From: Akkermansiaceae bacterium
Lineage (GTDB): Bacteria; Verrucomicrobiota; Verrucomicrobiia; Verrucomicrobiales; Akkermansiaceae
NCBI GenBank assembly: GCA_903919975.1
Contig: CAIXKE010000044.1
Coordinates: forward strand, 1-44,938
Direction: 5' to 3'
DNA length: 44,938 bases
Shown here one piece after another: positions 14,135 through 36,532 of the stretch (position 1 is the first letter of the stretch; each line of letters opens with the position of its first letter). The translations under genes and the position numbers were made by a program. The notes under the pieces were generated by a model. That model saw only the letters and a list, made by a program, of their open reading frames with translations, did not search any database and was not told the DNA's origin.

Positions 14135-14205
14135 ATAAGGAGCAGGGACCTTATTGGTGGCCGGGACGATGAGGAAGAGGCGACAGTAAGGTCGCCACTC
14201 CTTAT
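14135..14205. repeat. REPIN-like element A (AAGGAG...CTCCTT ends)
   Basis: Bounded by ATAAGGAG (14135-14142) and its exact inverse CTCCTTAT (14198-14205). The right half carries the hairpin GGCGACAGTAAGGTCGCC (14179-14196), one base before CTCC. The left half carries a less perfect counterpart, CAGGGACCTTATTGGT, whose reverse complement shows the same AATAAGGT loop. Two REP units in inverted orientation make this look like a REPIN. Confidence 0.75.
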
Positions 14206-14214
14206 GGATGAAGA

Positions 14215-14231
14215 GGCGACAGTAAGGTGCC
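14215..14231. repeat. Single degenerate REP unit
   Basis: GGCGACAGTAAGGTGCC repeats the hairpin of the flanking REPIN-like elements, but the right arm has decayed, leaving a GGC/GCC stem. It lies between elements A and B and suggests the cluster grew by local duplication. Confidence 0.6.
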
Positions 14232-14237
14232 ACGGAA

Positions 14238-14319
14238 ATACGGAGCAGGGACCTTATTGTCCCTTCTTCCGCGACCGGGACGATGGGGAAGAGGCGACAG
14301 TAAGGTCGCCACTCCTTAT
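14238..14319. repeat. REPIN-like element B, supplying the rlmN stop codon
   Basis: Bounded by ATACGGAG (14238-14245) and CTCCTTAT (14312-14319). The left hairpin is GGGAC/GTCCC round CTTATT (14248-14263); the right hairpin is GGCGAC/GTCGCC round the AGTAAG loop. Read on the minus strand, both hairpins share the ACARTAAGGT loop but have different, internally matching stems. The right end overlaps the TAA stop codon of rlmN at 14316-14318. Confidence 0.78.
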
Positions 14320-15395
14320 GTAAGGCTTGCGGAGATGATACCTTCTTCGGTTTCTTGTTTCAGGCGGAGTTGGCCGCAGGCGGCATCGATATCGTGGCCT
14401 TTTTCGAGGCGGAGGTTGGCGGTGACGCCGGCGTTTTTCAGGATGTCGCGGAAGGCGCGGCAATGGACATCGGGCGGGCGTTTCCACTCCAGGCCATCCA
14501 CGGTGTTGTAGGGGATGAGGTTGACCTTGGCTTGGATGCGGCGGGCGTGGCGGGCGAGGATGGCAGCTTGTTCGAGTGAGTCGTTGACGCCTTGGATGAG
14601 GATGTATTCGAGGGTGAGTTTCTGGTTTTTGCGGGCGTTCCAGAAATCGAGGGCGTCGAATAATTCGGCGACCGGCCATTTTTTATTCACCGGCATGATT
14701 TGTTGGCGGACTTCATCGGTGGCGCCGTGGAGTGAGATGGCGAGGCGGATTTGTTGCGGGTGCTCGGCGAGTTTGCGGATCTGGGGGACCAGGCCGGAGG
14801 TGGAAATGGTTAGGTGGCGTGCGCCGAGGTGGAGGGTTTTCTCGCCGGTGATCAGGGAGATGGCGGCTAACAGGCTGTCGAGATTTGCGAGCGGCTCGCC
14901 CATGCCCATGAAGACGAGGCTGTCCACGCGCTCGCCGGAGAGTTGTTCGGCGGCGAGCACTTGACCGGCGATTTCCGAGGCATCCAGATTGCGGGTGAAT
15001 CCTGCTAGGCCTGAGGCGCAGAATTTACAGCCGTAGGCACAACCGACTTGGGAGGAAACACAGAGCGTCCGGCGGTCGGATTTTTCGCCGTAAAGCGCGG
15101 GATTGGCTGGGATGAGCACGCTTTCAACGTAGCGGCCGTCGTGCAGGCGGAAGAGAAATTTGCGGGTGGTATCGGCGGAGCCTTGGGTGTGCGTGTGTTC
15201 GAGTGCGCCGAGACGGAATGAAGCGGTTAGTTTGTCTCGTAATGCGATCGGGAGATTGCTCATCGTATCGATCGAGGTGACTTTTTTCTTCCAAACCCAT
15301 TCGAGGATTTGGGCGGCGCGGAATGAGGGTTCGCCAGCGTCCTTGAGCCATGAGGCGAGGGATTCCGGGCTGATTCCTGTGAGGGCGGGGAGCAT
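14316..15395 (-). CDS. rlmN: 23S rRNA (A2503-C2) / tRNA (A37-C2) methyltransferase RlmN
   Basis: 359 residues. A radical-SAM dual-substrate methylase acting on A2503 of 23S rRNA and A37 of some tRNAs. The iron-sulfur motif is CAYGCKFC (C-x3-C-x2-C, about residues 115-122), preceded by the DRRTLCVSSQVG strand and followed by GMGEPLANLDS. The second catalytic cysteine is in GHDIDAACGQL near the C-terminus, so the enzyme looks complete. After that the protein ends in SASLT, and the TAA stop is part of the CTCCTTAT terminus of a repeat element. The last few codons may thus have been changed by the repeat. folB lies 31 bases upstream on the same strand. Confidence 0.95.
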   Translation of the reverse strand: MLPALTGISPESLASWLKDAGEPSFRAAQILEWVWKKKVTSIDTMSNLPIALRDKLTASFRLGALEHTHTQGSADTTRKFLFRLHDGRYVESVLIPANPALYGEKSDRRTLCVSSQVGCAYGCKFCASGLAGFTRNLDASEIAGQVLAAEQLSGERVDSLVFMGMGEPLANLDSLLAAISLITGEKTLHLGARHLTISTSGLVPQIRKLAEHPQQIRLAISLHGATDEVRQQIMPVNKKWPVAELFDALDFWNARKNQKLTLEYILIQGVNDSLEQAAILARHARRIQAKVNLIPYNTVDGLEWKRPPDVHCRAFRDILKNAGVTANLRLEKGHDIDAACGQLRLKQETEEGIISASLT

Positions 15396-30809: not shown

Positions 30810-31361
30810 GCGCCCGGAGGGTTGATGGTTTCAGGCCGGGGATCAAGCGGGAATGCGGGAAGAGAAAGACGCTGCGCGGTCTGAAGGTCAAAGGTCTAAA
30901 AGTCGAAAGTCTGAAGAGATCCCCGATCCACGATCCTCAATCCCCGATCCACAATGACACGGGGGATGTTATTGGGGAAGAATCGAAGAGGGAGAAGCGT
31001 CGCAAATGACGAGCTACGACACGGAGCCACGACACTCATGTCGTGGATGCGGATGAAAAGCCTTTGAGGAAGAGTTTTGCGCTTTTCAAAGAAACCACAT
31101 CCGCATGCACCACAGTAAGGTGGTGCCTCCTTATGAGCTTCGCGCGGGGCTTGGACATCGACATTCGTAGAACAACGCTACATGCGGTTCAGAGGGGGGA
31201 TGGGAGGGCTTCGCGCGGAGCTTTGGCGATTCGGTTACGGTTCGCGCTCGGGCGACAAGTGGGCGGGGCGCGGCGGCCCAGCCCTACCGATTTTAATCCC
31301 CTATCCGCGATTTGATATTGGAGATTGGCGGGGGTGGAGGAAATGGGGGAGGATCACGGCC
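30810..31361. other. Repeat-rich gap between lpxC-fabZ and mutY
   Basis: 552 bp with no convincing gene. 30880-30955 holds two degenerate short-repeat runs: GGTCTGAAGGTCAAAGGTCT with AAAAGTCGAAAGTCTGAAG, and GATCCACGATCCTCAATCCC with further GATCC units. 31023-31134 is a REPIN-like element. TTCGCGCGG-type 20-mers recur at about 31136 and 31207. The mutY Shine-Dalgarno (GGGGGAGG at 31346-31353) ends the gap. Confidence 0.6.
31023..31134. repeat. REPIN-like element C
   Basis: Starts GGAG followed at once by the perfect hairpin CCACGACACTCATGTCGTGG (31027-31046). Then TGCGGATG and CTTTGA pair with TCAAAG and CATCCGCA further on, making a long central stem. It ends with CACCACAGTAAGGTGGTG (31109-31126), one base, and CTCCTTAT. 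Its closest relative is at 36405-36532; the last hairpin shares the ACAGTAAGGT loop with the elements at 14135-14319. Confidence 0.75.
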
Positions 31362-36404: not shown

Positions 36405-36532
36405 AAAGGAGCCACGACACTCCTGTCGTGGATGCGGATGAAAAGCCTTTGAGGTAGAGCTTCGCGCAATTCAAAGACCCCGCATCCGCAGCACCACAAG
36501 AGTGTGGTGCCTCCGGAGTGTGGCACCTCCTT
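36405..36532. repeat. REPIN-like element D
   Basis: Starts AAAGGAG and at once the hairpin CCACGACACTCCTGTCGTGG (36412-36431). TGCGGATG and CTTTGA are matched by TTCAAAG and GCATCCGCA. The closing hairpin CACCACAAGAGTGTGGTG is followed by CCTCC, then a near-duplicate of the end, GGAGTGTGGCACCTCCTT. It is about 80 percent like element C at 31023 by eye. Confidence 0.75.

Follow-up and report, generated by a model that had tools for sequence, protein, structure and literature searches.

The window, by which we mean the whole stretch of 44,938 nt that was analysed, contains a hairpin cluster at positions 14135–14319, flanked by rlmN on one side and, on the other, by a small minus-strand frame (recognized by eye) that precedes dnaB (assigned by Pfam). 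The cluster is made up of two REPIN copies, one of which has a damaged arm, and a REP fragment (Table 1). Read with GGAG first, an intact arm of the cluster consists of ATAAGGAG, one base, a 6-bp stem, the loop CTTA(C/T)T and the 3′ stem. Compared with the other copies (alignment A4), the left arm of copy a is short by ~12 nt, 3′ stem included, and thus no longer forms a short hairpin of its own.

Table 1. Hairpin elements of the window and the gene adjoining the cluster (positions in the window).
Feature	Position	Strand	Composition
REPIN-1 copy a	14135–14205		left arm ATAAGGAG and broken hairpin; spacer CCGGGACGATG; right arm GGCGAC-AGTAAG-GTCGCC, then CTCCTTAT
REP right-arm fragment	14207–14237	+	loop AGTAAG retained, foot gone; direct repeat D2
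REPIN-1 copy b	14238–14319		82 bp; ATACGGAG-C-(AGGGAC CTTATT GTCCCT)-spacer-(GGCGAC AGTAAG GTCGCC)-A-CTCCTTAT; layout and spacer CCGGGACGATG as in the REPINs at the G030 RAYT
rlmN	14316–15395	−	23S rRNA methyltransferase; Pfam RlmN_N and Radical_SAM
REPIN-2	31023–31134		left arm GGAG-CCACGACA-CTCA-TGTCGTGG (loop CTCA); spacer with ATGCGGATG/CATCCGCAT; right arm CACCAC-AGTAAG-GTGGTG, then CCTCCTTAT
REPIN-2	36408–36514		loops CTCC and CTCT; spacer family common with 31023–31134

A first-pass annotation of this DNA had described hairpins that share the loop ACARTAAGGT while their stems differ and still pair. The 10-mer is indeed repeated: five exact copies lie in the window (14183+, 14219+, 14251−, 14297+ and 31112+), a sixth copy in the cluster carries one mismatch (14148−), and with up to one mismatch the window has eight matches, compared with 1.16 expected and with none of 100 shuffles reaching eight. 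The unpaired loop, however, measures 6 nt (CTTAYT, GGAG first), and the outer letters of the 10-mer belong to the stem. The differing stems all pair (GGCGAC/GTCGCC, AGGGAC/GTCCCT and CACCAC/GTGGTG), although the CACC/GGTG hairpin at 31109 turns out to be the right arm of the separate REPIN at 31023. The arrangement in bounded pairs needs a similar correction. Paired hairpins are present in copy b, but copy a has its broken left arm and a third, footless and broken unit lies between the two copies. The border word CTCCTTAT stands at 14135(−), 14198+, 14312+ and 31127+ (four matches in the window against 0.54 expected, with one shuffle as high), except that the foot at 14238 reads ATACGGAG.

The further copies that the annotation expected elsewhere in the genome are there. 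Among 59 genomes, the exact hairpin pattern was found in six, with 8 matches in the window's own genome (G000; assembly of 3.81 Mb in 112 contigs, 97.6% complete), 103 in G026, 20 in G030, two each in G020 and G025, and one in G005. With the GGAG tag and up to one mismatch, the own genome yields 12 REPs, compared with one match for the backwards pattern; these are three arms with the CACCAC stem and nine others at four places. Thus, the elements are short hairpins in multiple copies, often in inverted pairs, as REPs and REPINs in the broad sense are. At rlmN, the window's genome alone among 20 genomes compared has an intact REPIN 3′ of this gene; none was seen there in 19 relatives (loci fetched out of 38 searched). 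The foot of the REPIN supplies the TAA stop codon of rlmN (14318–14316), and the C-terminal residues of the protein differ from those of the 19 relatives. One relative (L278, in G022) has a single degenerate REP-like hairpin, GTAGTGGCGACCTTAGATCGCC (GGCGA-CCTTAGA-TCGCC), ~10 bases after the rlmN stop. The site may therefore have been struck before, or the insertion may be older and not new to the species.

The annotation had also likened the GGAG foot next to a palindrome to REPs moved by RAYT transposases, and had named, as the thing to look for, a RAYT gene with these hairpins at its flanks. Such genes were found in four genomes. Thus, a RAYT of ~199 residues lies between window-type hairpins, on both sides, in G026 (C49) and G030 (C220), where it was located by reading the DNA between opposed hairpins, and in G034 and JAPLUJ010000543, too, such hairpins stand on either side of a Y1 transposase of RAYT type, the latter locus with TTCC loops as well on one side. 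A matching enzyme was not found in the window's own genome: a search of the 97.6% complete assembly for RAYT relatives (E ≤0.001) gave none of the CTTAYT clade. Relatives at this threshold occur in 55 of the 59 genomes. The own genome has two close ones, at C22:11771–12367 (60% identity to the G026 protein) and C3:59888–60475 (54%).

The assignment of these proteins draws on several comparisons. Against Pfam Y1_Tnp, the G026 and G030 proteins score 21.0 and 18.6 bits, below the cut-off of 23, compared with 24.9 bits, above it, for the C22 RAYT, which is among those of the 15 PF01797 matches in G000 that remain after setting apart nine from a family of ~370 residues. Against NCBIfam NF047646 (REP_Tyr_transpos), they reach 52.6 bits (E 4e-14) and 58.5 bits (E 7e-16), short of the cut-off of 80. 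A profile of 23 relatives finds the E. coli TnpAREP–REP complex, PDB 4er8, as its best match in the PDB (E 3.3e-8), and the same entry tops a fold search with an AlphaFold model of the G026 protein (mean pLDDT 81; E 5.3e-6), making it the best solved relative by both sequence profile and fold. In the 47 RAYT rows that were aligned, the Y---NP motif is present in all and the HUH motif PNHxH in 45 (L148 has PNHVR, and L177 has no PNH match); the loci examined leave out the weaker L136–L143.

The ~370-residue Y1 family raises the question of whether the hairpins are instead the ends or remnants of an IS200/IS605-like element of that family. There is a point to be made for this, since window-type hairpins in G026 also occur 3′ of these longer genes: a same-strand hairpin follows six of the eight copies with a readable 3′ side at a distance of ~40–195 nt, and L101 stays homologous to L103 and L040 up to where the hairpin foot ends. 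However, no hairpin was seen upstream of those copies, L100 and L097 have none, and none was found by pattern at the G000 loci of the family (several of them truncated by a contig end), whereas the small RAYT has a hairpin on both sides in four genomes. We regard an origin from the longer Y1 element as very improbable. Hairpins beside two kinds of Y1 gene do mean that more than one enzyme could use them in G026.

Several side observations concern the longer family. The six G026 copies with a downstream hairpin (L095, L096, L099, L101, L103 and L040) have one each, with a stem of GTGGAC or CGACGAC and the loop CTTATT. Five members in the own assembly (L012, L013, L014, L017 and L011) are situated at a contig end or close to one, and four of these are truncated, as would be expected if repeats broke the assembly. 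Short direct repeats such as CACGAGGAGGTGACGGAGAGAT or ACAGAGGGACGGGCC occur 5′ of some of the genes (L109, L097, L112 and others), in L109 on the 3′ side too, and are possibly the ends of that element. A second palindromic repeat, GCGCGTTGTGACCAACGCGGCCACT, with its variants, recurs in G026 downstream of the Y1 gene (L099 and L043).

Next to the RAYT genes, GGAG is the prevailing tag. Tags were counted at hairpins around 51 RAYTs and at hairpins ~700–1200 nt away, using 51 of 80 loci (the partial L196 and L202, and L209–L235, being left out). GGAG stands at the foot of 156 of 209 hairpins near the RAYTs, compared with 11 of 66 farther off; counts of other tags among the 209 are 27 for GGGG, 24 for GTGG, 3 for GTAG and 3 for CGTC. 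The GT(A/G)G head that marks the GTAG super-family is thus present in a minority of these hairpins. The tags described in the passages of PMC2817692, PMC3733652, PMC6006769 and PMC8266576 that deal with them are GT(A/G)G or CGTC. The main texts of these four papers and of PMC3686654 contain no word beginning with GGAG, and none of the papers searched has both RAYT and GGAG as whole words; twelve that name ‘repetitive extragenic palindrom’ together with GGAG are, judging by their titles, typing or detection studies and the like. GGAG would be a third tag beside the GTAG and CGTC of PMC3733652.

In other respects, the known systems offer close parallels. As portrayed in PMC6006769 and PMC8266576 (see also PMC3116915), REPIN/RAYT systems (REPtrons) with RAYTs of group 3 (TnpA subclass 2.5) likewise have inverted REP pairs and REP-flanked RAYTs, a tetranucleotide 5′ of the foot, perfect short palindromes with a loop that matters, and a protein with HUH and Y---NP motifs. 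They differ in that the tag here is GGAG and not GT(A/G)G, the loops are CTTAYT, TTCC, CTCC and others, the carriers are mostly Verrucomicrobiota, and the two proteins scanned here fall below the curated family cut-offs. Residues Q95, D100 and R104, reported in part of PMC8266576 as relatively conserved in group 3, have their counterparts in Q155, D160 and R164 here (aligned with Q95, position 100 and R104), and we consider the present RAYTs putative members of that group. The GTAG and CGTC super-families, as presented in portions of PMC3733652, also comprise tagged stem-loops in dimers, clusters and singles, with compensatory changes in the stem; their tags account for only 3 (GTAG) and 3 (CGTC) of the 209 feet near RAYTs. 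A verrucomicrobial species, Opitutus terrae, is listed there with GTAG repeats mostly altered to GTGG.

The stems of the hairpins covary. Units were picked by loop and foot only, pairing being ignored and badly pairing ones retained, which gave 105 places in 39 of 235 loci and, from these, 62 distinct rows. Across the 62 units, 86.6% of the stem cells pair (68.6% in shuffles) and 79 cells are double changes (29.8 in shuffles, with none of 500 as high); when the stem registers are slid, pairing falls to 36–60%. The foot ATAAGGAG and the loop are nearly invariant, in line with the earlier notion of a loop signature of its own, selected for structure. Folded as ssDNA, the two cluster REPINs have z-scores of −3.98 and −4.13, and those at 31023 and 36408 of −7.38 and −6.60. 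The hairpin structure is under selection, more likely as DNA than as RNA.

The alternative is that the hairpins are RNA elements, such as terminators or 3′-end stabilizers, selected on transcripts, with the link to RAYT being incidental. In its favour are their intergenic position after stop codons, the foot that provides the rlmN stop, and their stable folds. Yet G-U pairs account for 11 of 376 paired cells, as one would sooner expect of a DNA hairpin, the window has no Rfam match at the gathering score, and the absence of an intact REPIN after rlmN in the relatives is likewise at odds with it. Moreover, at 43 of the 51 loci at least one GGAG-footed hairpin lies beside the RAYT, often on both sides. 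Selection as RNA is in our view improbable.

A pseudoknot between loop and foot was considered and rejected. CTTAY is complementary to ATAAG of the foot in 87.7% of cells (A3), but 309 of 500 shuffles are equally good, and the match is a static complementarity without covariation. By eye, CTCC loops could pair with GGAG. No evidence is drawn from either complementarity.

The reading that we prefer, at a probability of about 0.86, is that the hairpins are REPs arranged as REPINs, which are non-autonomous and processed as folded ssDNA by a RAYT, a Y1 HUH transposase. The repeats of the cluster are thus of the REP kind, essentially as first proposed. In the mechanism we envisage, a lagging or otherwise exposed single strand would fold, and the RAYT would recognize the ssDNA hairpin by the GGAG at its 5′ foot and by the loop, while the stem need only pair. 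If recognition depended on tag and loop in this way, free drift of the stems would be expected. Cleavage by the enzyme would then take place at a CT beside the foot (at CTCC on the REPIN's far side), as has been reported for REPs with a GTAG tag, and the REPIN would be copied or moved into intergenic DNA, where its foot could even act as a stop codon. Binding and cutting of the hairpins by the RAYT is proposed here by analogy with PMC8266576.

Three REP populations coexist in the genome; a resident RAYT is known for two of them. First, REPs at the C22 RAYT have the C-first loops CTCC and CTCT. A pattern for this type (tag, five free bases, ACA-YTCY-TGT) gives 44 matches in the own genome, 24 exact and 20 with one mismatch, against two for the backwards pattern; 37 are C-first and seven T-first. 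This dialect, that of the resident RAYT at G000:C22:11771–12367, includes the window's REPINs at 31023 and 36408. Second, REPs at the C3 RAYT read GGAGCGCCGACATTCTGTCGGC, with 66 matches at up to three mismatches (33 exact; none backwards). Third, there is the type of the window cluster, whose 12 matches are to be compared with the 44 and 66 bearing in mind that the three patterns are of unequal strictness. An IS200/IS605 insertion sequence would have a hairpin at either end of a single transposase unit and would move as a whole; the RAYTs within one genome have diverged from each other, and their REPs are many. Loop types are also mixed to some degree: three REPIN-2 arms have CTTAYT loops, and L157, one of the four CTTAYT RAYTs, has TTCC hairpins downstream as well. 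As a minor observation, the tandem half-REPINs at G000:C112:16703–16787 and G000:C23:62580–62663 have an identical CACCAC stem with a CTCC loop and then CTTATT, that is, the loop has changed while the stem stayed constant.

Since CTTAYT RAYTs are found in congeners and not in the own assembly, the window cluster is probably part of a CTTAYT population orphaned of its RAYT. An enzyme of this type may also be hidden in a gap of the assembly. Alternatively, the resident C22 RAYT could be mobilizing the cluster now, despite the different loop. The CTTAYT loops on the three REPIN-2 arms with the CACCAC stem (window 31109, C23 and C112) and the seven T-first sequences among the 44 C22-type matches would agree with this. 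Against it, the loops that flank the C22 RAYT are C-first and its residue 106 is Asp, compared with Phe106 in the four CTTAYT-flanked RAYTs, and REPs of the CTTAYT type are scarce and in part damaged next to 44 and 66 of the other types (again by patterns of unequal strictness). Current mobilization by the C22 enzyme therefore seems unlikely to us, and we retain the orphan reading.

Loop class follows the RAYT on a tree of 47 sequences, comprising 41 of the 51 loci and six others; L192–L195, L197, L201, L203–L205 and L207 were dropped as having no clear loop class. The loop class of each row was read by eye off its hairpins, at a stage when column 106 had not yet been noticed. On this tree, the 13 loop classes require 16 changes, compared with a mean of 32.1 and a minimum of 28 in 200 label shuffles. 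The careful trees place the four CTTAYT RAYTs in one group (support 93/89 and 98/87); in a quick tree one TTCC row falls among them, and constraining the CTTAYT rows together is not rejected (p 0.46). For the comparison of loops with residues (L156 numbering), the 6-nt CTTAYT was counted as TTAY, its outer letters being taken as a mismatched closing pair. With 11 distant rows set aside, column 106 then separates all 36 main-clade RAYTs, having Asp in 13/13 with C- or A-first loops and Phe, Tyr or Gln in 23/23 with T-first loops; the next best column reaches 89%. A further scan of 288 genomes of the order gave 24 places, seven of them already used, and all of the other 17 agree with the rule, although L301, L303, L310 and L314 are near-identical to earlier rows, L311 and L312 had been fetched earlier and left unlabelled, L301 is called from a single hairpin whose foot is degenerate, and the feet in L313 and L315 are mainly GGGG. 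Combined, the agreement is 53/53, with the next best column at 83%. A mechanical majority call of the loop agrees in 52/52, one row being uncalled, with single hairpins against the majority in L163 and L185.

The rule has its limits. On the best tree, residue and loop each change eight times, and well supported branches provide only two independent pairs, so that no significance is obtained by that test. Among the 11 distant rows, five are C-first by eye without Asp; by the mechanical call, with 6-nt loops trimmed, nine are called, seven T-first and two not. Of the 39 loci outside the 47 rows, 18 could be called (2 ties and 19 without a loop call make up the rest), 13 agreeing and five disagreeing (L195, L197, L207, L227 and L228). 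Just two Asp rows with a called loop are among these 39, one A-first and the other C-first, the latter being a Planctomycetia record with seven CTCC/CTCT hairpins. Thus, Asp106 goes with a non-T first loop base in 24/24 callable cases, and the reverse fails in distant lineages. A second candidate for the residue that sets the CTTAYT loop, H146, is consistent with the data but amounts to one change on the tree and was rejected.

From these alignments, one amino acid of the RAYT, residue 106, which aligns with V42 of 4er8, appears to go with the first loop base. In the mechanism outlined above it would read this base or sit beside it. For group 3, the part of PMC8266576 concerned with the loop reports single loop bases to be essential in two systems, with contacts that can only be guessed at without a structure. 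In the GGAG clade, residue 106 would determine which first loop base the enzyme accepts, Asp selecting C or A, while T would be selected by Phe, Tyr, Gln and small residues, an assignment that we put forward tentatively. The broader proposal of a one-residue REP code, for which we would give slightly less than even odds, is that tag and loop form the address, the stem is free to drift, several REP dialects can share a genome and hardly interfere with one another, and a dialect that loses its RAYT stays behind as a fossil population, of which this window would hold an example. How RAYTs of perfect palindromes tell their own REPs from others becomes directly testable with this large natural set of RAYT–REP pairs, mostly from Verrucomicrobiota, whose loop classes are told apart by one position in the protein.

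Lastly, the C22 RAYT lies between genes that read as ffh and miaA. RAYTs with C-first loops precede a gene reading as miaA in five genomes (L128, L129, L164, L166 and L135), with ffh upstream by Pfam in L166 and by eye in the other four; Pfam (SRP54 and IPPT) was run on these neighbours in L166, a relative with the same arrangement. The shared position beside miaA suggests that these RAYTs were vertically inherited.
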